Source: Planctomycetaceae bacterium
Lineage (GTDB): Bacteria > Planctomycetota > Phycisphaerae > UBA1845 > UTPLA1
Reading direction: 5' to 3'
DNA length: 64,000 nucleotides
Assembly: GCA_006969385.1 (NCBI GenBank)
Contig: CP030884.1
Coordinates: 2,418,001-2,482,000 of the forward strand
Below the pieces are notes generated by a model. The model worked only from the letters and a program-made list of their open reading frames with translations. It had not been told where the DNA came from and made no database searches. Shown here piece after piece: positions 16,939-63,601 of this stretch. How positions within the stretch are numbered: the stretch's first letter is position 1; the number at the start of each line of letters is the position of its first letter. Made by a program: the position numbers and the translations under genes.

Positions 16939-17436
16939 ATGCAGTGTCCATATTGCAAAGAGCAGCAGGACAAGGTCATTGATTCACGCGCCACAGAAGG
17001 CGGCTCCGTCATTCGCCGGAGACGGCATTGCCTTGCCTGCGGTCGCAGATACACGACCTACGAACGTGTCGAAACCTCGAGCAAACTTCTGGTCGTCAAA
17101 AAGGGCGGGGAACGCGAACCCTACGAACGGGAAAAGCTCTTCTCCAGCCTGCAGCGTGCTTGTTACAAGCTCCCCCACAGCGTCGAAACCCTGCAGTCGA
17201 TCATCGACGAGGTCGAGGAGGACCTCTTTCGGCGATTCGAGCGCGAAGTGCCGTCGTCTTTTTTGGGCGATGCCGTTTCCCGCCGACTGCGCAAGCTCGA
17301 TAAGGTGGCGTATCTCCGCTTTGCGAGCGTTTACTTAGAACTCCGGCTTGTTGACGACTTCATTGAGGAGGCAAGAAACCTTCAAGGTGAAGACAAGGAT
17401 GTCCAAGGTCAACAGGAGCTATTTCAGGATGAATAG
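16939..17436 (+). CDS. nrdR: transcriptional repressor NrdR
   Basis: 165 residues starting MQCPYC. The zinc ribbon uses C3, C6, C31 and C34, followed by the RRRRxC...RYTTYER signature and an ATP-cone domain (about 49-140). NrdR senses ATP/dATP and represses ribonucleotide reductase genes. Length is usual for the family, with a slightly acidic C-terminal extension. It overlaps the next gene, which is a second ATP-cone protein, by 8 nt. No nrdA/J gene is in the window. Confidence 0.95.
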   Translation: MQCPYCKEQQDKVIDSRATEGGSVIRRRRHCLACGRRYTTYERVETSSKLLVVKKGGEREPYEREKLFSSLQRACYKLPHSVETLQSIIDEVEEDLFRRFEREVPSSFLGDAVSRRLRKLDKVAYLRFASVYLELRLVDDFIEEARNLQGEDKDVQGQQELFQDE

Positions 17437-18100
17437 CGAACAGCATGCCATGGATGGCACGATTCGCGTTCTGAAACGGGATGGAAGCGTCGAGGAATTC
17501 AACTTTTCGAAGTTGCTGACGTGTATCCGTCACGGCTTTCAGGGCAGCGGGGAACCGCTCGATCGACATAAGGCGACCAGCAAAGGGCTAACCGAGGCGG
17601 TGCAAACCTACCTCGAACGCTCCGAGCCGCATTCGCCGGTGCCGACGCACTACTTGGCCGAGCTGGTCGAGTTGGTGCTGACGCAAACCGGCTACACAGC
17701 GGCCAGTCTGGTCATCAAGGAACACGCCGATCTGCGCGGTCGGCGGCGCAACTGGGTCAAGGTGGCCCAGCGGCGCGAACGCGATGGGCGCATCGTGCAG
17801 AAGCGGTGGAGCAAGAGCCGCGTGGTGCGGCACTTGGTTGAGATACACCGGCTCGAAACCCCTGCGGCGCGCATGATTGCCGGCCGCGTCGAACAGTTGG
17901 TCTTCAACTGTGGCATCAAGGTGGTAACGACCGGCTTGGTTGATGAAATGGTACGCAGCGAACTGCTGGCGTGGGGGCTCTTGCCCGCGGCGCTGGTGGT
18001 CAAACGCAAGCGCGGTGCGCAGCCCCGGCTGCCGACGCAAGATGAGAAACCTGTTCGCTCACGCAAACGCAAGGTGAGCGACAAAACGGATACGGCCTGA
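17429..18100 (+). CDS. ATP-cone domain protein
   Basis: 223 residues. ATG 17429 is chosen because AGGAG lies at 17413-17417 and because the ATP-cone begins at once (RVLKRDGSVEEFNFSKLL, residues 13-30). A second helical block (RLETPAARMIAGRVEQLV and onward, about 150-195) resembles the latter half of an ATP-cone. The C-terminal tail is very basic (Lys/Arg-rich). It starts within nrdR, so it is translationally coupled to it. Its role is not known; a nucleotide-responsive partner of NrdR is an inference only. Confidence 0.75.
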   Translation: MNSEQHAMDGTIRVLKRDGSVEEFNFSKLLTCIRHGFQGSGEPLDRHKATSKGLTEAVQTYLERSEPHSPVPTHYLAELVELVLTQTGYTAASLVIKEHADLRGRRRNWVKVAQRRERDGRIVQKRWSKSRVVRHLVEIHRLETPAARMIAGRVEQLVFNCGIKVVTTGLVDEMVRSELLAWGLLPAALVVKRKRGAQPRLPTQDEKPVRSRKRKVSDKTDTA

Positions 18101-54203: not shown

Positions 54204-54288
54204 CGGAGAGGGAGGGATTCGAACCCCCGGAACATTGCTGTTCAACGGTTTTCAAGACCGTCGCCTTAAACCACTCGGCCACCTCTCC
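54204..54288 (-). tRNA. tRNA-Ser (UGA anticodon)
   Basis: On the minus strand the acceptor GGAGAGG (54288-54282) pairs with CCTCTCC (54211-54205), plus a G discriminator. The D arm, the anticodon arm ACGGT-CTTGAAA-ACCGT with anticodon TGA, a long variable arm (GAACA/TGTTC) and a T arm with TTCGAAT are all present, a class II serine tRNA of 85 nt. CCA is not encoded. Nucleotides 1-44 (54288-54245) are the left copy of the element's att core, so the 5' half may now be element-derived. Confidence 0.95.
54245..54288. repeat. left attachment site core (44-bp direct repeat)
   Basis: Identical over all 44 bases to 63098-63141. It covers the tRNA-Ser 5' half up to the 3' edge of the anticodon stem, so the crossover is probably in the anticodon stem-loop (CGGTTTTCAAGACCG). 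Confidence 0.95.
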
Positions 54289-54289
54289 T

Positions 54290-54541
54290 ATGGGGCTAGA
54301 CGGGAAAACGGTCGCGCCAAAAAATGACCGTGCCCAAAGTGTCAACAGTAGCCCGGAAAATAACCCCATTCCGGCAGACCTTCAAGCACTGCTCGCCGCG
54401 TGGTCCAAATTGCCGAAAGCCACGCGCGACCATATTACCGCGTTGGTGAAGCAGGCCACCCGTGACGACGGCCACGCCGGGATTGTCACCCCGAGCCGGA
54501 AGGGGGAGCCACAGAAGACGCCACGCCGTTCCGAGGGTTAG
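54290..54541 (+). CDS. detached C-terminal tail of the integrase (split gene segment)
   Basis: 83 codons that start immediately at the left att core. In the joined circular form, codon CC(63140-63141)+T(54289) reads Pro, and the integrase frame continues straight into this ORF up to TAG (54539-54541), giving a 536-residue integrase. The segment contains PADLQALLAAWSKLPKATRD, a short helical pattern that I recall from C-termini of planctomycete integrases. A terminator follows at 54583-54605. In the integrated form it has an ATG but no ribosome site, so it may be silent. Confidence 0.7.
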   Translation: MGLDGKTVAPKNDRAQSVNSSPENNPIPADLQALLAAWSKLPKATRDHITALVKQATRDDGHAGIVTPSRKGEPQKTPRRSEG

Positions 54542-54582
54542 CCCGATCCGACGAGTGACGCCAACAACCAGAACCACGCCAC

Positions 54583-54605
54583 GCCGGGAATTTCCCCGGC
54601 TTTTT
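54583..54605 (+). terminator. terminator after the integrase tail ORF
   Basis: GCCGGG (54583-54588) pairs with CCCGGC (54595-54600), followed by TTTTT (54601-54605). It lies 42 nt after the tail ORF and would be the integrase terminator in the circular form. Confidence 0.75.
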
Positions 54606-54710
54606 CATTGCCGTGAGTATCTATTCAGTACCCTGACTGTGTTCATATTGCCGCGTCAGACTAGTATGGTCCGCTAGGTCTTTATACGTGACGACAAAGA
54701 GAGGTGCTAT

Positions 54711-55190
54711 ATGGATGGTCAGTTAGTAGGCGTGATAGTCGGTGCAATCATTGCGGGGTTGTCGGGTGCGACCGTTCAAGCGTTGCGAAACCGGCACCAA
54801 GTTGAGGGCGAATTTCGACAGGCGGTCAGCCGCTATTACGCGTACATGGTCGGTACAGTGGACGCTTTCTACTACTACAAAGTTTGCGGTGATGAGATGA
54901 AAGACAAGGACGTAGCCGATAGGGGAATGAGAGAGACGTATGTCGTCAAAGCCAACCATTACCACACTTGCTACACCGAGGCCACCATTGCTTATGCGAC
55001 CATCAGACGATACGGCGACAATAATACGCAAAGGGATGTTGACGCACTTGAACGGGAATGGAACCAATTGCAGATTGAGCCTCACGATGAAGAGCGGTGG
55101 AACACTTGGCGGAATGAATACACTTGGAAGTTAGAACAATTCCGCGATAGTGCCCGAATTGGTTCACGGTCCGACAGTGGCGGGAATTAG
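54711..55190 (+). CDS. hypothetical cargo protein, membrane-anchored
   Basis: 159 residues, with GAGAGG before the ATG. One N-terminal membrane anchor (residues 4-22, LVGVIVGAIIAGLSGATV) and a long helical soluble part rich in Tyr, Arg and Glu. No family recognised. It is convergent with the next gene and AT-richer than the host. Both lie in the cargo position between terminator and excisionase, where accessory or defence genes are often found; that is inference only. Confidence 0.6.
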   Translation: MDGQLVGVIVGAIIAGLSGATVQALRNRHQVEGEFRQAVSRYYAYMVGTVDAFYYYKVCGDEMKDKDVADRGMRETYVVKANHYHTCYTEATIAYATIRRYGDNNTQRDVDALEREWNQLQIEPHDEERWNTWRNEYTWKLEQFRDSARIGSRSDSGGN

Positions 55191-55198
55191 GTGGCTCG

Positions 55199-55843
55199 TT
55201 AGTTGAACTCGTCCGCACCATCGTCTTCGTTGACGTCGCCTTGCTCATCAATCTGGGGCCGAAAAACGACAAGCATAGAAATCAAGGAATGGGCGACAAT
55301 TGCGACCGCAGCAATAGAAATACTCCACCAAAATTCGCCGTCGAAATACCAAACACCTGATGCCGCGCAATAAATCAACATCACCAAAAGGATGTGGCCG
55401 AAGCTCGCGTCTCCTTTATCGTCTTCCTTGGAAGCCATGTATGTCAGTGGCAGATAGACAATCCCAAGCCCGAACAAGAAAGAGGGCAGCAAAGGGGCTA
55501 CCTGATTCTCAATAACAAAGTGATGAGTTACCGCGAGTCCCCAGATTGCAAGGGCCGCATTCGTCCAAAGTGAAACGATGAACGTGCTTAGCCAAACCAA
55601 AACTAGATTCTTTTTTGTTATTTCACGGTCAAGCAATAAACCCGATAGCAGAAACACCGGTAGCATTAGAAGTGTGAACCCCAACGGCATAACCATAATG
55701 TTCAATATTCCAAATAGTAGGAGCCGCCATTGCCACGTGAACAGTAGCCAGCCTCCACCGATCAACAAGCCGCCCAATGCTAGTATTGAAGAAATTGCGG
55801 ACGTGCCGTAACTGTACGCAGATTGTGAACTACCTCTATTCAC
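55199..55843 (-). CDS. hypothetical polytopic membrane cargo protein
   Basis: Start placed at GTG 55843, which has AAAGGA 7 to 9 nt upstream; an ATG at 55882 is in frame but without a site. About 214 residues with six membrane segments and a very acidic C-terminal tail. No recognised family. It is the only minus-strand gene of the element. Confidence 0.6.
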   Translation of the reverse strand: MNRGSSQSAYSYGTSAISSILALGGLLIGGGWLLFTWQWRLLLFGILNIMVMPLGFTLLMLPVFLLSGLLLDREITKKNLVLVWLSTFIVSLWTNAALAIWGLAVTHHFVIENQVAPLLPSFLFGLGIVYLPLTYMASKEDDKGDASFGHILLVMLIYCAASGVWYFDGEFWWSISIAAVAIVAHSLISMLVVFRPQIDEQGDVNEDDGADEFN

Positions 55844-56056
55844 GACCCAGTCCTTTCTATATAGACATTCCGCTAATTCCACCCATTTCCGGAACTTACA
55901 CCCACAAACGTACCCCGTTATTCACGCACCGCAAGCCGCAACGGCACCGGTTGTGATTCCGGTCAATCCGCGCATCCGGATAACTACTCGAAAACTGTGA
56001 ATAGGTATTTTTTCTTCGCAGCTGGCGCAGTCGTTTCAACATTTTCCCGTGTTCGC

Positions 56057-56062
56057 TATAAT
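56057..56062 (+). promoter_or_regulatory. candidate promoter -10 of the excisionase/replication operon
   Basis: TATAAT in the context GTTCGCTATA (56051-56060), 121 nt before the excisionase start. TTTCAA at 56034-56039 is a weak -35 at 17 nt spacing. Confidence 0.5.
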
Positions 56063-56122
56063 TCGCGTATTGCCGTATCCGGCAGGTCATTCGAGGAGGA
56101 AACAATAGGCGTCCGGTGGTTT

Positions 56123-56144
56123 CCACATTCACTTGCGAATGTGG
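56123..56144 (+). other. leader hairpin upstream of the excisionase gene
   Basis: CCACATTC (56123-56130) pairs perfectly with GAATGTGG (56137-56144) around ACTTGC. Just upstream (56094-56099) is a perfect AGGAGG with no ATG, GTG or TTG at normal distance. The leader may regulate translation of the operon. Confidence 0.45.
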
Positions 56145-56182
56145 CTGGGCGCTGAAGGTACGCGCTGAAAACGAGGTGCTGA

Positions 56183-56386
56183 ATGCGACAACTACCCACA
56201 CTTATTACCAAGCGGGATTTAGCTGCGGCCCTTGGGGTTACACCTAGGACAATCGAGAAATTGCGATTGCGCGGCGATGTGCCAGCACCGATCCGCGTTG
56301 GGGGCAGCGTTCGTTGGGATATAGATGAAGTTAGAAGTTGGCTACGGAAGGCCAAGGAGCCGTCGCAAGGTGCGACAATGACGTAA
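56183..56386 (+). CDS. excisionase-like helix-turn-helix protein (MerR/AlpA fold)
   Basis: 67 residues. LITKRDLAAALGVTPRTIEK is a winged helix-turn-helix of the HTH_17/excisionase type, followed by VGGSVRWDIDEVRSWLRKA. Such proteins direct integrases toward excision or switch on operon genes. First gene of the replication operon; 15 nt before the next gene. Confidence 0.85.
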   Translation: MRQLPTLITKRDLAAALGVTPRTIEKLRLRGDVPAPIRVGGSVRWDIDEVRSWLRKAKEPSQGATMT

Positions 56387-56401
56387 AGGAGTAAAACCAA
56401 A

Positions 56402-56710
56402 ATGAATAAACCAAAAAAGCCCGTAGGGGTGTTCCAGCACCGCCTACGGGCCAAGTCTCAGAATGTTGCGCCTGAGTACCATGAGCATTATAACAACCAC
56501 TCTAAAGAAATGAAGAGAAATGCAGGTGGATTCCTTCCTGCGAAATATCGCCGTCGGCGGCGCGACCTTGATTTGATGGGTGATGCGCGCGGTGACATGC
56601 ACGAACTAGTCCGCCGCGCTGTTGACGCCGTACGTTGTGGCGCGGGCGAGACCGCTGCGGCCCTAATGCGAAGCGCGGGCCGCGCGGTCGTGGATGGGGG
56701 GACCGAATGA
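56402..56710 (+). CDS. hypothetical basic protein of the element
   Basis: 102 residues, AAAGGAG before the ATG. Rich in Arg, Lys and His in the first 60 residues (AKYRRRRRDLDL), helical afterwards. No known family; a nucleic-acid-binding role is possible from its charge. Its stop overlaps the next ATG (ATGA). Confidence 0.6.
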   Translation: MNKPKKPVGVFQHRLRAKSQNVAPEYHEHYNNHSKEMKRNAGGFLPAKYRRRRRDLDLMGDARGDMHELVRRAVDAVRCGAGETAAALMRSAGRAVVDGGTE

Positions 56711-57243
56711 AGCCCCCAACCAACCCACACGCCTATGCGTTGTATCAGGTACACCAACTAAAAGACCTGACGCCCGTCGAGAGATCGGCTCTGCTCGCAA
56801 TATGGCAGATTCAGGGCTTGTGGAAGAAGCCAATCGGCCCCCGCGTGGTCGGTCACCTTTGCAACATTAGCACCGCCTTCGCAAAAAAGGTGCTCGCCAA
56901 GTTGAAGCAGAGAGGCTATCTCAGGTCCGACGGTGGCGACTTCCGGCCCGGATTCAAGCGTGTCGCTACCCGCCAAATCACAGCGAAAGCCGGACTGCCT
57001 GACCTACCAAAATCGGTGACCGCCGAGAATCCGCAGGAAGCGATTAACGCAAAAATCGGTGACCATGTGGTTACCGAAAATGAGAAAACAGCGACCAAAC
57101 CACCCCAAAAAATCGGTGACCATACGGATACCCTGACAGTAAATAGTTGCGGGGGCATTAAAAGCCCCCCGCAACAAAGTGACGAAGACTTGGTGACCGT
57201 GTACCCATTCACGTGGGGAAAAGCTGACGGGGTGGCAGCATGA
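56707..57243 (+). CDS. winged-helix replication protein-like
   Basis: 178 residues from ATG 56707. Residues about 20-75 form a winged helix (LTPVERSALLAIWQIQGLW, then ISTAFAKKVLAKLKQRGYL). The C-terminal part is low in conserved features, and its DNA carries three full copies of AAAATCGGTGACC. Coupled by ATGA overlaps to both neighbours. By position it could be the initiator that binds these repeats, but that is inference. Confidence 0.6.
   Translation: MKPPTNPHAYALYQVHQLKDLTPVERSALLAIWQIQGLWKKPIGPRVVGHLCNISTAFAKKVLAKLKQRGYLRSDGGDFRPGFKRVATRQITAKAGLPDLPKSVTAENPQEAINAKIGDHVVTENEKTATKPPQKIGDHTDTLTVNSCGGIKSPPQQSDEDLVTVYPFTWGKADGVAA
57009..57198 (+). repeat. iteron-like repeats within the winged-helix gene
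   Basis: AAAATCGGTGACC occurs at 57009-57021, 57052-57064 and 57109-57121, with a partial GGTGACC at 57192-57198. Further copies are in the primase gene at 57595-57605 and 58236-58247. The copies are read in two different frames (SVT and IGD), so the DNA rather than the peptide is conserved. Copy 2 is part of an inverted repeat CGGTGACC-ATGT-GGTTACCG. Confidence 0.65.
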
Positions 57244-59009
57244 CGAACAACGCCCTAGAGGCTGCAATCAAATACCTTAGCCTTGGTTGGCGGTGCATAC
57301 CGATTAACCCGGAAGATAAGAGTGCTTTGGTGAAGTGGAAGACAGGGACCAAAGGAACGGTCGATCAACTCAAGGAATGGTGGACTCAATGGCCGAATGC
57401 AATGGTTGCTGTCTTAACAGGCCCCGCCTCTGGCTTGCTTGTCGTTGACGTTGACACCGTAGAGGGTGGCCACCAAGACGGAATGGCGACGTTACGTGCA
57501 CTACAGGCTCAATACGGCCCCCTGAATGGTACTCTCGAAGCACGCACGCCAAGTGGTGGCATACACCTTTATTACGCATGGCCCGACCTTGAAGAATCGG
57601 TGACCATTCCGACGAAGGCAAACGCACTTGGTCCCGGCGTGGATATCAAATCGCGTGGCGGCTACGTCATTCTGCCCCCGTCCATTCGCGCTGACGGCAA
57701 GCCGTATGAATGGGTGGACGAATCCGAAGTGGTAGAGATACCGAACGATTGGCTTGTCGAGCGAATCACTAAGCGGATACGCGACAACCCGCCGGAATCC
57801 AGCAAGGCTGAAGCCACCTTTGAAGACGTGGCGCGATTCGTCGAAGAACTGACACGCACGCCGCCTGCCATTGAAGGCAGCGGCGGTGATACACACACCT
57901 TTCAGACATGTTGCCGTGCGGCAGTGGATTACAAGCTAACCCGCGAACAATTTCTAACCGCCATTGCAGACTGGAACAAACGGTGTTCCCCACCTTGGAC
58001 CGAGGACGAACTATTGCAGAAGTTTGAGAACGCGAAGAAATATGCCACCGGACAACCCGGCGCGGCGTTAGTGGATCGCCACGACGTTGACGAACAAATC
58101 AACAACGACCCTTTTGCCCAATTCGGTATCGCCGCAATCGGTAACAACCCCGCGACCTTTGCGCCGGTTGAGCACATCCCTACCGGTATCGAAGCTATCG
58201 ACGACCGCATTAACGGCCTTGGCGGATTACGTTCCAAATCGGTGACCCTTATTTGTGGAAAGCCGGGCGAAGGCAAAAGCACAGTCGCTGTCCAGATTGC
58301 GGCCAATGCAGCGGCAGAGGGCTGCCCGGTCGGAATAATCTCAGCCGAACTTGATAGCACCGACGTATTTCGGTTAGTCGCGGCGCAACATTCGAGAATC
58401 CCGCGTTGGAAGCTCGAAACCAATAAGGTTACAAACTCTGAAGCCGGTGATTATCGAAGAACGAAAGAAGCAATCGACGGTTGGCCCCTTCACATTCTCG
58501 ACAGCAACGCGTGGATCGGCGCGCTAGACCGCAACAAACTTCGCTCAGTCGTCGCCAAGGGTGTTGAGGCTTACGGATGGAAGTTGGTCGTGTTGGATTA
58601 TCTCGGCTTGCTCGCGCCGGTTTCCGGCGAAAACTCGTTTGAAACTGACCTAGAGAACTCGACTGCCATCAAGTATCTTGCCCGCGATTTTGATATCGCA
58701 CTTCTCGTCGTGTCAGCCATGCGCAAGTCCGCAAACTTTGCGAAGCCTACTAAATCAAAGGGAGCACCGTCTCTTGATGAAGTTACTGGCGCTGCTCGTA
58801 TCGGCTACGACGCGGCCAACGCGTTCTATATCCAGTCGAACCTCGACAAGCACCGACCAGACCGTGGACTACTCGAATTATGGTGCCAAAAAAGCCGGTA
58901 CAGCGGACTTGCAAAAACTGACAAGGTGATAACGCTCACGTGGCATCCTTATTCAGGTGCTGTAACCGACAAATTGAACTATGCGCACGGCGACGATTAC
59001 GCCGCTTAG
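57240..59009 (+). CDS. bifunctional DNA primase-polymerase / replicative helicase
   Basis: 589 residues. The N-terminal Prim-Pol domain (about 1-190) has the metal pair D70 and D72 (VVDVDT) and the SGGIH motif (H109). The C-terminal RecA-like helicase domain (about 310-560) has Walker A GKPGEGKST (about 340-348) and a Walker B-like LVVLDYLGLL. Such fused proteins start and unwind replication of plasmids, phages and satellites, so the element should replicate by itself at some stage. ATGA overlap with the winged-helix gene. Confidence 0.88.
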   Translation: MTNNALEAAIKYLSLGWRCIPINPEDKSALVKWKTGTKGTVDQLKEWWTQWPNAMVAVLTGPASGLLVVDVDTVEGGHQDGMATLRALQAQYGPLNGTLEARTPSGGIHLYYAWPDLEESVTIPTKANALGPGVDIKSRGGYVILPPSIRADGKPYEWVDESEVVEIPNDWLVERITKRIRDNPPESSKAEATFEDVARFVEELTRTPPAIEGSGGDTHTFQTCCRAAVDYKLTREQFLTAIADWNKRCSPPWTEDELLQKFENAKKYATGQPGAALVDRHDVDEQINNDPFAQFGIAAIGNNPATFAPVEHIPTGIEAIDDRINGLGGLRSKSVTLICGKPGEGKSTVAVQIAANAAAEGCPVGIISAELDSTDVFRLVAAQHSRIPRWKLETNKVTNSEAGDYRRTKEAIDGWPLHILDSNAWIGALDRNKLRSVVAKGVEAYGWKLVVLDYLGLLAPVSGENSFETDLENSTAIKYLARDFDIALLVVSAMRKSANFAKPTKSKGAPSLDEVTGAARIGYDAANAFYIQSNLDKHRPDRGLLELWCQKSRYSGLAKTDKVITLTWHPYSGAVTDKLNYAHGDDYAA

Positions 59010-59096
59010 CAAGACACGACCGCTCACTTGCTGGAAAACCTAACCCGCATGCCGCCACGTGCATATACGCGGACGATCCGCAGGAAGGCTGGCGAT

Positions 59097-60092
59097 ATGC
59101 CACAACCACTTTTACCCGAAGCGTTCCACAACACCACCCGGTATTACACGGGGGCGGACGTATCCAATTTAACCCCTCCCGGCGACTACGTTCTTAGTCA
59201 CGACGCTGAGAACCGATTCGCTGTGCCGATTACTGTCGCAGACCGTGACGCCGCCTACGGCTTGATTGCACAGCTTCAATCAATTTCTGGCGTATCTTCG
59301 CAAGAGATAAACGCCCTCATTGCGGACATTGAAGCCGGAATCCGCAGCGGCGACCGCAACGTGTTATCGCAGACCATGCAGGCCATTAGCGGTGCCACCG
59401 TCAACGCAGAGAATGCCGCACGGTTCGACGAAGCAGAAGCCGAAGCAGCAGCAACCATCGCCCGCAACGTGACCGACTTGGAAACGTTGGGCACCGACAC
59501 CAACAACCTGTTCGACGAACGCATTAGTCGTCTTAGCGGGTTCTTAAACAATCCCAGCAGCGTCCGTAGTGACGCCAGCCTTGCTGCAGCGTTGGGTGAA
59601 GTAGAAAACGCCATTGATACGCAAGTAAACCGTCAACGCACAACAGCGGCCAAGGGGTTGTCCGACGCCGGAATACGTGCATCTGGAAAACTCACCGACC
59701 GCGTAGCCAATGCCGAACTGCTCGGCACCGCTCAGAAGGGGCTTAACTTTTCCAACCTGTTGGGCGGCTTGCGAACGCAACGCGATACATTGCAAACGGA
59801 CCAAGGTAATTTCAATCTCGCGTTAACGGATTCGATTACCGGTGCCCGTGCTGGTGGGATTCCGCAGTTGACGAACCTGACGCAACTGGGGGCGAGTGCC
59901 AATCAGCCAATCGACTACACCACCAGCGGGCTAACCGCGTTGGATATCGACTCGCTCAATCAAGGGGCGCAACAGCAAGATTTTGGCAACTTCTTACAGG
60001 TTCTCAGCCTTGGTGCCGGAATTGCAAACAATTCAATCGCCGCCGGGAACAGCCTGTTCGGGCAAGGCGGCGCACTCTCGTTCAGGGGTTAA
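59097..60092 (+). CDS. hypothetical protein, possibly virion/ejection-like
   Basis: 331 residues; ATG 59097 is chosen because AGGAAGG (59082-59088) precedes it. The protein is Ala-, Asn- and Gly-rich with long helices (about 60-200) and a C-terminal part (LTQLGASANQPIDYTTSGLT) that resembles internal virion or DNA-ejection proteins of tailed phages in style. This is a weak impression from composition only. Confidence 0.5.
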   Translation: MPQPLLPEAFHNTTRYYTGADVSNLTPPGDYVLSHDAENRFAVPITVADRDAAYGLIAQLQSISGVSSQEINALIADIEAGIRSGDRNVLSQTMQAISGATVNAENAARFDEAEAEAAATIARNVTDLETLGTDTNNLFDERISRLSGFLNNPSSVRSDASLAAALGEVENAIDTQVNRQRTTAAKGLSDAGIRASGKLTDRVANAELLGTAQKGLNFSNLLGGLRTQRDTLQTDQGNFNLALTDSITGARAGGIPQLTNLTQLGASANQPIDYTTSGLTALDIDSLNQGAQQQDFGNFLQVLSLGAGIANNSIAAGNSLFGQGGALSFRG

Positions 60093-60094
60093 AC

Positions 60095-60607
60095 ATGGCA
60101 AAGCGAAATACTAAATTCAAACCCGGGAACAACGGCAACGTCGAACAACGCAAACGAAATCGCGAAAAGCTAAAGGCGTCCATACCGCCGTGCCCACCCA
60201 GCTATTCATTCATGCGGGCTGCGTGGGACCAACTAGCGGAGAAGGCGTTGAGGGGATGTGACAAAAGCCTGCACAAGCTGTGGGAGATTGCAGAACGGGA
60301 AGTTGGACAAGGCGGGAAGTCGGGTGAAGCGATAAACACCGACCGCCGACCGATCGCCAACAACAACTTGCCGCCCGCATGCCGTGCGTTACGTGAATCG
60401 TTAGACATCGACATTGCGTATATCGTTCAACGTCACGAAATGGGATTACCTGAAAGCGAGCCTGAGCGGCTACTTGCGGAAACAAGTTTAGCTATTCGCG
60501 ATAGCGGGTTAAAAGGCCGTGCCGCTCGCCGTGGTGAACAGATAGCCAAGGCGTGGAAGCAAGCTATGGAACTGTTGGACAGCGAGGAAAGTAATGGCAA
60601 AGAATGA
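60095..60607 (+). CDS. hypothetical protein of the element
   Basis: 170 residues, starting 2 nt after the previous stop. Basic N-terminus (KRNTKFKPGNNGNVEQRKRN, a KFKPGN pattern seen in some small phage packaging proteins), then helical. No firm family. It overlaps the next gene by 14 nt. Confidence 0.5.
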   Translation: MAKRNTKFKPGNNGNVEQRKRNREKLKASIPPCPPSYSFMRAAWDQLAEKALRGCDKSLHKLWEIAEREVGQGGKSGEAINTDRRPIANNNLPPACRALRESLDIDIAYIVQRHEMGLPESEPERLLAETSLAIRDSGLKGRAARRGEQIAKAWKQAMELLDSEESNGKE

Positions 60608-60965
60608 CCAACCGAACGAAGCCGATCTACTCGTTGACGAAGTGGGCATACTTGAGATTTATCGTGGCCTGCCGTTAGAACTCAAGGCACTTCTACACCA
60701 ACGAGTTAAGAACAATGGCGGCTTTCTAATGAACCCGGAACAAGCCAAACCCACAGAACCAAAGAACGAACACGAACGCGAGTTGCTCAATGATTTGCGA
60801 AGCATGGACGACCTTCGCCGTGTTGCGACTGCCTTCATGTTCCGTGCAATGGCGTCCTACATGCTCGGCAGGCGAAGTGTGTTGCAAGGCGGAGTGACGA
60901 AGTCTGACGACGTGACGACGTTTCAATCTGTCGGATTCATGCCGCCGACGCAAGGCAATGCGTAG
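60594..60965 (+). CDS. hypothetical protein of the element
   Basis: 123 residues, translationally coupled to the upstream gene. Helical and acidic in the first half, with ATAFMFRAMASYMLGRRS in the middle. Not recognised. Last gene of the replication-centred operon. Confidence 0.5.
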   Translation: MAKNDQPNEADLLVDEVGILEIYRGLPLELKALLHQRVKNNGGFLMNPEQAKPTEPKNEHERELLNDLRSMDDLRRVATAFMFRAMASYMLGRRSVLQGGVTKSDDVTTFQSVGFMPPTQGNA

Positions 60966-61087
60966 TTGCTGGAATGGCGTGGGTGTACGGGACTCCAAGC
61001 GTTTCTGCAAGAAGTTTTTTTTACAGGGTGGATAGGGGTGTAGGGAAGTTAAAGCGCGAGAGAAAAGGGGCGGGGTTTCCTTAATCT

Positions 61088-61097
61088 TGTATATACA
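61088..61097. promoter_or_regulatory. TGTATATACA palindrome
   Basis: A perfect 10-bp palindrome within the gene-free, AT-richer stretch 60966-61397. It could be an operator or part of an origin. Confidence 0.3.
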
Positions 61098-61271
61098 TAC
61101 AGAGCCCCAAACGCTGTGGCAAACCTCCCTTTGCGCGACCCCACCCGTGATAGTGTTACGGCAACTTGTCTATATAGTCGCACGCCATGCCGGGAAGGTG
61201 ATAGGAATAAGCTAGGGTTTTGATACCAGTAATATTGCTAAATCAAAGTTATTAAAATCTGGATTATTTAT

Positions 61272-61299
61272 TTGACTTCGCCGATACCGGTGATATCTT
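61272..61299 (+). promoter_or_regulatory. candidate promoter of the 99-residue gene
   Basis: TTGACT (61272-61277) and TATCTT (61294-61299) are 16 nt apart. The transcript would have a leader with a 7-bp hairpin (GGCCCCG at 61337-61343 with CGGGGCC at 61359-61365) before the ATG at 61398. Confidence 0.5.
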
Positions 61300-61397
61300 T
61301 TGTTTAGTCGGTCGCGCGTTGCACCGGCAATAAGTTGGCCCCGCGTTGCGGTAACAACCGGGGCCGTTGGTCCTAACCTAAATGAGAGGCTAGAACA

Positions 61398-61697
61398 ATG
61401 AACGATTCTAACACCACCACCACCAATCGAACCACCACGACCGACGAACTTCAAGCCGCCGTTGAAGCTGCCGCCGTTTCTGGTTACACCGGCTTGCCGG
61501 AAGGCACCGAAACGCAGTTGGTGCACGTAGAAGTGTTTCTCGTCACCAACGACGACCCCACCCAAGATGACTTGAGCGGCGACTATAAGCACGAATTGAA
61601 CTTTCGCGTTCCCGTCGATCAGTGCGGTGACATTGCCAAGGCTGTTGGTGAAGCCCTTCGTCCCTTCGCCGGTTATCGTGTCGAACTGCCTAACTAA
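61398..61697 (+). CDS. hypothetical small protein of the element
   Basis: 99 residues, GAGAGG before the ATG. The N-terminus is a Thr/Asn-rich run (TTTTNRTTTTDE), then a compact alpha/beta part with HVEVFLVTNDDP and ELNFRVP. It has its own promoter and terminator, so it is a single-gene unit just before the integrase. Not recognised. Confidence 0.6.
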   Translation: MNDSNTTTTNRTTTTDELQAAVEAAAVSGYTGLPEGTETQLVHVEVFLVTNDDPTQDDLSGDYKHELNFRVPVDQCGDIAKAVGEALRPFAGYRVELPN

Positions 61698-61714
61698 TTC
61701 TAGGTAGCATGGGG

Positions 61715-61750
61715 AAGCCCTCGGCATATCGCTGGGGGCTTTCTTTTTTT
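61715..61750 (+). terminator. rho-independent terminator before the integrase gene
   Basis: AAGCCCTCGGC (61715-61725) pairs with GCTGGGGGCTT (61731-61741) and is followed by CTTTTTTT. It separates the 99-residue gene from int. Confidence 0.85.
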
Positions 61751-61783
61751 CTCACACTTCAAAACCTAGCTAGGGGATTCGAT

Positions 61784-63391
61784 ATGCCAAGGAAGCGAAG
61801 CCGGGCGAATGGTTCCGGAACACTATTCCGGCGTAAAGCGGGTGGACCGTGGATTGCCCGTTGGCACGACCACACGAACACGCGACGGCAACGAAGCACC
61901 GGGACAAGCGATAAGGCGACAGCCGAACGCATTCTACGGAAGATAATCAGCGACGAAGCGCTGCGCCGCGAAGGCGTTATCGACGTTGCCGACGACCGCT
62001 ACGCCGCTCACGAACGCAGGCCACTGAGCGTACATCTTGCCGATTGGCAAGCCGCACTAACGGCCAAGGGTGTCACGCCACAGCAGGTGAAGCAGGCGAC
62101 TATGAGAGCGACGAAGATAGTTGACGCCACCAAGGCGGATCGACTATCCGCGTTATCCGCTTCCCGTGTTCAGGCCGCAATAGGTGACCTGCATGACGAC
62201 GCTGACGGCAACGGGCTAAGCCTGCAAACGTGCCACCATTATCTACGGGCAATAAAGCAGTTTTCCCGCTGGTTGCACCGAGACGGTCGCATCAAGGCCG
62301 ACCCGCTCGCGCACCTATCCGGCTTCAATGCTGAGACTGACCGACGATACGAACGCCGCGCCCTCACCGCTGACGAACTGACCGTTCTGATTGAATCGAC
62401 AGAGACGGCACCAACGTGGCGGAAGTTGACCGGACCCGACCGCGCCATGTTGTATCGAGTTGCCGCTGGCACCGGCTTCCGTGCAAAGGAATTGCGTAGC
62501 CTCGCACCGGCAGACTTTCACCTGAACGAACAGCCGCCCGTGGTGGTGTTGCAAGCCAAGCAATCGAAGCGGCGACGGAAGGACGTACAACCGATCCGCA
62601 GCGACCTTGCCGAACTGCTGAAGCGGTGGCTTGCCAATATTCCGGCAGGCAGGTCGGTATGGAATAGTCAGTGGCATGACAAAGCCGCAGAAGGCATGCG
62701 GTGCGATTTGAGGCTTGCACGTGCAAGGTGGATAAAGAACACCAATGTTCCGGCAGAACGCCGTCAACGCCATGCTAGCGACTTCCTAGCAATTACCGAC
62801 CATTCTGGTCGCGTTGCAGACTTTCACAGTTTACGTGCGACGTATATCACGTTGGTCATTCAAGGTGGCGCGTCAGTGAAGCAGGCGCAAGCGCTGGCGC
62901 GACATAGTGACCCGAAGCTCACGTTCAATCGCTACGCACCGTTGCGTGTGTCAGATATCGCAAGCGGACTTGAAGGCATGCCGGTGGCTGTCACCAGTAA
63001 AAGCCTAGGATGTCAACAACGGGTTTCAGATTCGCGTGATATGGCTGCTGCTGTAGGTGCGGAAAACGGCTTGTTTAAAGGGGAAATTGCGACCAATACG
63101 GTTTTCAAGACCGTCGCCTTAAACCACTCGGCCACCTCTCCCAATCGTTGCGAGATAACGCACTTAGCACGCCCCCAAAGAGCGGGTCGTGCGCGCTCGC
63201 AATCTATGAAAGTTACCGCGATTGTCCGAGGCCTTCAAGCGCGCGTTCTGGATTCGTTCGATATCGACCACAGCGAGCGTCATCATCTTCGACGAGCGTT
63301 TCACTTCTCTCACCGGCGGGACGCCCATGCGGCCCCTAAGCGACTCCCCTGCCGAAGCGCGGCCAAAACTTTGACTTCTGTCGAGCCGTAA
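61784..63391 (+). CDS. int: tyrosine site-specific integrase, frame passing through the att core
   Basis: ATG 61784 with AGGGGA upstream. An N-terminal arm and SAM-like domain (about 80-185) precede a catalytic domain with R233 (GFRAKEL), H348-R351 (HSLR), H374 (ARHSD) and nucleophile Y384 (FNRYAP). Residues 439-453 are encoded by the att core (antisense of the tRNA 5' half). In the integrated state, the last 82 residues come from host DNA and look like chance coding, giving 535 residues. In the circular state, the frame goes on into 54290-54541 (536 residues). Confidence 0.92.
   Translation: MPRKRSRANGSGTLFRRKAGGPWIARWHDHTNTRRQRSTGTSDKATAERILRKIISDEALRREGVIDVADDRYAAHERRPLSVHLADWQAALTAKGVTPQQVKQATMRATKIVDATKADRLSALSASRVQAAIGDLHDDADGNGLSLQTCHHYLRAIKQFSRWLHRDGRIKADPLAHLSGFNAETDRRYERRALTADELTVLIESTETAPTWRKLTGPDRAMLYRVAAGTGFRAKELRSLAPADFHLNEQPPVVVLQAKQSKRRRKDVQPIRSDLAELLKRWLANIPAGRSVWNSQWHDKAAEGMRCDLRLARARWIKNTNVPAERRQRHASDFLAITDHSGRVADFHSLRATYITLVIQGGASVKQAQALARHSDPKLTFNRYAPLRVSDIASGLEGMPVAVTSKSLGCQQRVSDSRDMAAAVGAENGLFKGEIATNTVFKTVALNHSATSPNRCEITHLARPQRAGRARSQSMKVTAIVRGLQARVLDSFDIDHSERHHLRRAFHFSHRRDAHAAPKRLPCRSAAKTLTSVEP
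63098..63141. repeat. right attachment site core with orphan tRNA-Ser 5' half
   Basis: Perfect copy of 54245-54288. It is a non-functional 5' half tRNA fragment on the minus strand and lies inside the integrase frame. Host DNA resumes at 63142, which should hold the tRNA's former upstream region. Confidence 0.95.
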
Positions 63392-63406: not shown

Positions 63407-63601
63407 ATGCATCTGGTCACCGTCACGATTTTGGCCACGCTCATTGCCATCGGCTTGCTGGCGGTCGCCTCGTACGGCGTCTATTTCTTCGCCAAGGGGC
63501 CGCGTGAGCGACCGGGCTATTGCCGCGCCTGCGGTTACAACTTGCGCGGCAATCGCAGCCGCACCTGCCCCGAATGCGGCCAACGGTTTCTGCGACCTTG
63601 A
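63407..63601 (+). CDS. hypothetical membrane protein with zinc ribbon
   Basis: 64 residues: one membrane helix (5-28), then a zinc ribbon YCRACGYNLRGNRSRTCPEC (four Cys). It is related in style to the C-terminus of the protein at 25802-26449. Host gene, just right of the element. Confidence 0.65.
   Translation: MHLVTVTILATLIAIGLLAVASYGVYFFAKGPRERPGYCRACGYNLRGNRSRTCPECGQRFLRP

Follow-up and report, generated by a model that had tools for sequence, protein, structure and literature searches.

Integrase genes that reach into their own attachment sites have been described before: the Islander paper notes that integrases may extend across attP, citing Mx8 and SSV (PMC4383910), and the principle is therefore already known. 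A 2021 review treats self-disrupting tyrosine integrases as exclusive to archaea (PMC8371274); in the literature examined, the self-altering integrases known from bacteria are that of phage Mx8 and a handful of others. Papers that followed the original Mx8 work place attP within the 3' part of int, so that integration swaps the C-terminal 112 residues for 13, and report that the enzyme is less active or altered as a result (PMC4701971, PMC6070905). In the 'suicidal' integrases of archaeal SSV, pTN3 and pT26-2, attP also lies in int and integration divides the gene (PMC8371274). In streptococcal ICE serine integrases that target rumA, attR falls within the integrase gene and the C-terminus is exchanged with the target gene (PMC4701971).

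The planctomycete integrase gene described here resembles that of Mx8 in that its att core lies in frame downstream of the catalytic Tyr and its C-terminus is exchanged; the Mx8 sequence likewise carries a tRNA-like stretch followed by a long tail. The two integrases themselves are only weakly similar, at 33% over 49 N-terminal residues. Between the tails no similarity was detected, the tail HMM scoring 4 bits against Mx8 Int at a position outside its tail. The planctomycete system thus appears to work like Mx8, while membership of an Mx8 lineage is unsupported. Mx8 is moreover a single phage, whereas the planctomycete elements form a family with many tRNA targets and one tail domain in common. 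The initial annotation had instead invoked the SSV-type integrases, a comparison that holds for the position of attP in int and the division of the gene and fails, as the annotation itself noted, for the point of division: the SSV-type split lies upstream of the catalytic domain and parts an N-terminal piece from it, whereas here the catalytic domain stays whole and what is lost is a C-terminal domain alone, making Mx8 the better analogy. The rumA integrases differ in being serine recombinases with a protein-coding target, and in that their exchange shifts the frame. The planctomycete elements are a new form of the principle known from Mx8, and a literature search that covered few subscription journals found no publication on this family or its tail domain.

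The window, meaning the whole stretch analysed, comprises 64,000 nt of Planctomycetaceae bacterium (GCA_006969385.1, contig CP030884.1, positions 2,418,001-2,482,000 of the forward strand); its relevant features are listed in Table 1. Two direct repeats, 54245-54288 and 63098-63141, are identical at 44/44 positions and represent the att cores, corresponding to the first 44 nt (the 5' part) of a tRNA-Ser(TGA) gene identified by ARAGORN. They delimit an integrative element of 8.85 kb (54289-63097 plus one core). The empty tRNA site that the initial annotation proposed to look for is present in the same-genus genome G001, where contig C315 carries an intact tRNA-Ser. Genes to its left match those of the window (protein identity 96% and 88%), and to its right lies CAATCGTTGCGAGAT, the start of the window's right flank, with a relative of the protein encoded at 63407 also present (52% over 29 residues). 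A search of this site found no related integrase. The window element is therefore an insertion at tRNA-Ser, with the hallmarks of a tDNA-targeted element: a tRNA gene at one end, a tRNA fragment at the other, and an empty site in a relative.

Table 1. Features of the integrative element and its insertion site, in window coordinates
Feature	Coordinates	Strand	Basis
tRNA-Ser(TGA), intact target gene; holds one att core (54245-54288)	54204..54288	-	ARAGORN; repeat
Int C-terminus as read in the circle (Pro + 83 aa, ending at TAG)	54289..54541	+	junction translation; relatives
Conserved two-helix motif ADLQALLAAWSKLPKATRDHITALVKQA	54374..54457	+	alignment of 24 tails; helices predicted in L126 homologue
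Terminator-like hairpin and T run 3' of the tail stop	54583..54600	+	2 such found in the stretch vs 0.7 expected
Small HTH_17 protein (excisionase/AlpA-like), candidate directionality factor	56183..56386	+	PF12728 2e-07; putative role
Prim-Pol/DnaB-type primase-helicase	57240..59009	+	PF09250 3.7e-38, PF03796 3.5e-22
int, integrated-state reading: tyrosine recombinase, 535 aa, host-coded C-terminal tail	61784..63391	+	PF00589 3.5e-13 (residues 193-386); phrog_1 2e-29; translation
att core in int frame, 5' fragment of tRNA-Ser	63098..63141	+	44/44 match to 54245-54288
Host DNA read as int C-terminal tail when integrated (Pro + 82 aa)	63142..63391	+	translation; start partly conserved at G001 empty site

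The window element carries its intact tRNA at the tail end and a 5' tRNA fragment in int, whereas most relatives have the intact tRNA at the int end and a 3' fragment at the other. Element DNA, here the tail-coding segment, therefore lies upstream of the tRNA once integrated; islands with 5' fragments number 159 of 3919 in Islander (PMC4383910). When window 54289-54296 is set against L245 4078-4085, the element DNA that directly follows the core, TATGGGGC, resembles the G001 empty-site sequence TAAGGGGC, and the window's right flank lacks ~26 bp present at that site; the window core may once have been longer. Among the remaining genes, the primase-helicase suggests that the circle replicates. 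No capsid or terminase match was found among the element proteins scanned (54289-63097), so the element may be a satellite or integrative plasmid.

The encoded Int has the PF00589 domain with the R..HxxR..H..Y signature of tyrosine recombinases. Its catalytic residues R233, H348, R351, H374 and Y384 are invariant in an alignment of 12 relatives and lie upstream of the core, which starts ~54 residues past Y384, and they all stay together after integration. The int frame is open through the right core, and the outcome in the two states follows by translation. Joining 63141 to 54289, as in the circle, continues int with Pro (CCT) and the 83 residues of 54290-54541, a tail that begins MGLDGKTVAPKND and ends RRSEG before the TAG at 54539-54541, for a protein of 536 aa; the remaining two frames at this junction close after 3 and 12 codons. 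In the integrated state the same frame instead reads Pro (CCC) and 82 host residues. The initial annotation had reported this arrangement from core to tails, including the position of the catalytic residues and a terminator after the circle stop, and our reanalysis confirmed its core to the base and both frames to the residue. The hairpin it called a terminator would end the int mRNA in the circle only. The 82 open codons of host DNA are a chance length and carry no weight as evidence. The open circle tail is not due to chance, because it is conserved in relatives.

Integrases related to that of the window occur in 53 of 61 sampled relative genomes, mostly metagenome-assembled, and the named loci are nearly all from Planctomycetota. 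Among the loci with the best matches, most have an int frame that extends ~70-250 residues beyond the catalytic domain into a tRNA gene, and the window's 83-residue tail weakly matches other elements at the end that lies away from int. Elements were delimited by a pairing rule, in which a repeat present both around the 3' end of int and upstream of the gene had to overlap a tRNA, and the ends were then joined as a circle and translated in the int frame; all element counts derive from this rule, and loci with no second att copy are unclassified. Int is open and in frame over the circle junction in 28 of 32 elements with paired att copies, the window included, giving tails of 53-171 residues at nine tRNA types (Ser, Thr, Arg, Lys, Met, Glu, Cys, Tyr and SeC). 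No out-of-frame junction occurs among paired elements whose int is open to the core (28/28 in frame), and the alternative two frames at these junctions are open for at least 53 codons in just 11 of 56 cases. Three of the tails (G015a, G015c and G004) are closely related, leaving ~25 of 28 independent; were frames random, agreement in 25 would have a probability of ~(1/3)^25, the motif left aside. One apparent out-of-frame case, L166, was rejected after an unrelated 21-bp repeat proved to have been paired, its tRNA core giving an in-frame junction.

The motif DLxxIVxAWPxLPxxIRxxIxALVxAA or a close form appears in 25 of the 28 tails, and the other three (L123, which is the G034 C6 element; the G034 C3 element; and L196) carry variants. 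An HMM of the motif trained on 10 tails detects further tails outside its training set at 24-49 bits; weak hits in L124 and L087 were left out of the counts. The segments resembling 54290-54541 for which the initial annotation suggested a search are thus found, both in circle joins and in naturally unbroken genes. Both refuting checks that it set, this search and a circle junction that breaks the frame, came out in its favour. The tails are under purifying selection: read in the fused frame, three pairs within one group gave a pN/pS of 0.28-0.30, and one pair with variant tails gave 0.12. In the integrated state the tail of L200 has no in-frame start codon, and several others have GTG or TTG only. 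By these low ratios and poor starts, the tail is maintained as protein, most simply as part of Int. The motif has no convincing Pfam match and the window tail no PHROG match, and no close relatives were found in collections of phage and plasmid records. Viral contigs scanned with the full integrated Int gave no match; the catalytic part and the alignment, used as queries, did.

Two elements of G034 on contigs C3 and C6 (L078/L252 and L123/L263) use different tRNAs (Ser and Thr) and have in common the variant tail ESDVPPDVKAxVVRAV, which is under strong purifying selection. The window's own genome carries a second element of the family at G000:C1 ~2223700-2230000 (L084; tRNA-Arg, 6.2 kb, in-frame circle tail). 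It also holds a third related integrase at G000:C1:4529661-4530359 (L002, L095), which ends in a TAA stop and runs into tRNA-Thr, and for which no second att copy was found within 37 kb; several other loci gave none within 20-40 kb.

In four of the 32 paired elements int closes before the core. One of these, on contig C4 of G023, likely has a frameshift in int, since its tail is still there; the others (L117, L167 and L216) may be decayed or belong to a tail-less class. Int, core and tail are contiguous with the tail out of frame in L086, L089 (the same as L174) and L175, and stops interrupt int in L086 and L089. In L086 (G033:C6, ~17400-17890, int strand) int, a tRNA-Thr fragment and the tail adjoin in different frames, and the tail is read in the frame used by other Thr elements, pointing to a hybrid junction of two tandem elements. 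L089/L174 and L175 are probably decayed or hybrid copies.

Naturally unbroken genes complement the circle joins. On a 43-kb IMG/VR contig (L126), with a terminase large subunit among the neighbouring genes, int reads in one frame through the catalytic domain, the tRNA-like GARTRNLRFRRP, a linker, the motif and a stop. The same order of parts, with tRNA-like core and tail in one frame, recurs in L231, from a metagenome-assembled planctomycete genome; in L222 the tail is fused to int with no recognisable core. Judged by their sequences, L126 and L231 have the gene form expected prior to integration. In an AlphaFold2 model of L126 Int, the catalytic part (residues 1-421) is mostly predicted with confidence, the segment that holds the core (422-527) is disordered, and the tail forms a hairpin of two helices (536-547 and 550-570) in a block with pLDDT mostly 78-96, a confidence that depends partly on the supplied alignment of integrase bodies and tails. 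Foldseek matched this model to known tyrosine recombinases (lambda Int, XerA and Cre), with the integrase of mycobacteriophage Brujita (5vfz) as top hit; that enzyme shares the recombinase fold and is 287 residues long, the L126 query 571. Going by the model, a cut at an attP within a disordered linker would leave both folded parts unharmed.

We propose, and consider likely, that integration severs the C-terminal domain of the integrase through an attP placed within int, and so makes itself self-limiting. The evidence for the planctomycete family consists of sequence comparison and predicted structure; the sequences show how the att sites and int are arranged, that a relative has the empty site, that 27 further elements repeat the layout, that a phage contig carries the fused gene, and that the tail is under selection. 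attP sits in the int coding sequence, where this encodes a predicted long disordered linker that joins the catalytic domain to the small two-helix C-terminal domain. In the circle, int thereby reads through the catalytic domain, the linker with its tRNA-derived core, the C-terminal domain and a stop. Recombination at the core with tRNA-Ser strands the C-terminal domain at the end opposite int, cut off from its gene, and gives Int a meaningless host-coded tail. The tail is joined to Int in the excised form only and yet is under selection, and for this reason we infer that its role is likely in the integration reaction. Efficient integration (attP x attB) would depend on the domain, and without it Int activity would be lowered or redirected, producing self-limiting integration and a stable integrated state. 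Excision would then be performed by the truncated Int with a directionality factor, for which the HTH_17 protein (56183-56386) is the candidate, or by full-length Int from an incoming copy. The C-terminal swap is probably a built-in switch between integration and excision.

The tail could alternatively be needed in every reaction, leaving Int dead once integrated and exit dependent on full-length Int from another copy. Its strong conservation would suit such one-way use, as would the archaeal precedent with rescue in trans (PMC8371274) and the existence of tandem or related copies (L086; L084 in the window's genome). We nevertheless think this unlikely: the catalytic residues and the whole catalytic domain are intact after integration, unlike in SSV; Mx8 Int retains some activity without its tail, according to papers after the original work (PMC4701971, PMC6070905); and the element has its own excisionase-like gene. 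It is very improbable that the distal reading frame is an independent small gene, such as a regulator or directionality factor, that lies beside attL by happenstance. The window ORF does start with an ATG one base past the core, as such a gene might, but the frame agreement with int in all 28 elements whose int reaches the core, the missing or GTG/TTG-only starts elsewhere, and the natural single-ORF fusions largely refute a separate gene. Pure chance would have attP fall at the 3' end of int, a position found in many elements, with open frames on both sides by accident. The comparisons refute it and leave it a negligible probability, given the conserved motif and frame, the purifying selection and the natural fusions, even though in the window the host tail likewise stays open (82 codons) and tRNA genes in the loci examined often have open antisense frames.

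Severing of the C-terminal domain by integration would account for the many planctomycete integrases that end in tRNA-derived residues. The attP-in-int layout is common in this planctomycete element family, with a conserved domain that is absent from Pfam and detached whenever the element is integrated, and it offers a direct, testable route to the control of integration direction. A broader proposition, that a large bacterial integrase lineage carries a single-use integration module, in which the hairpin domain confers integration competence and is severed by the very reaction it promotes, strikes us as evenly balanced between true and false. If true, directionality in these elements would be hard-wired in gene structure, and annotation would display only the truncated enzyme.
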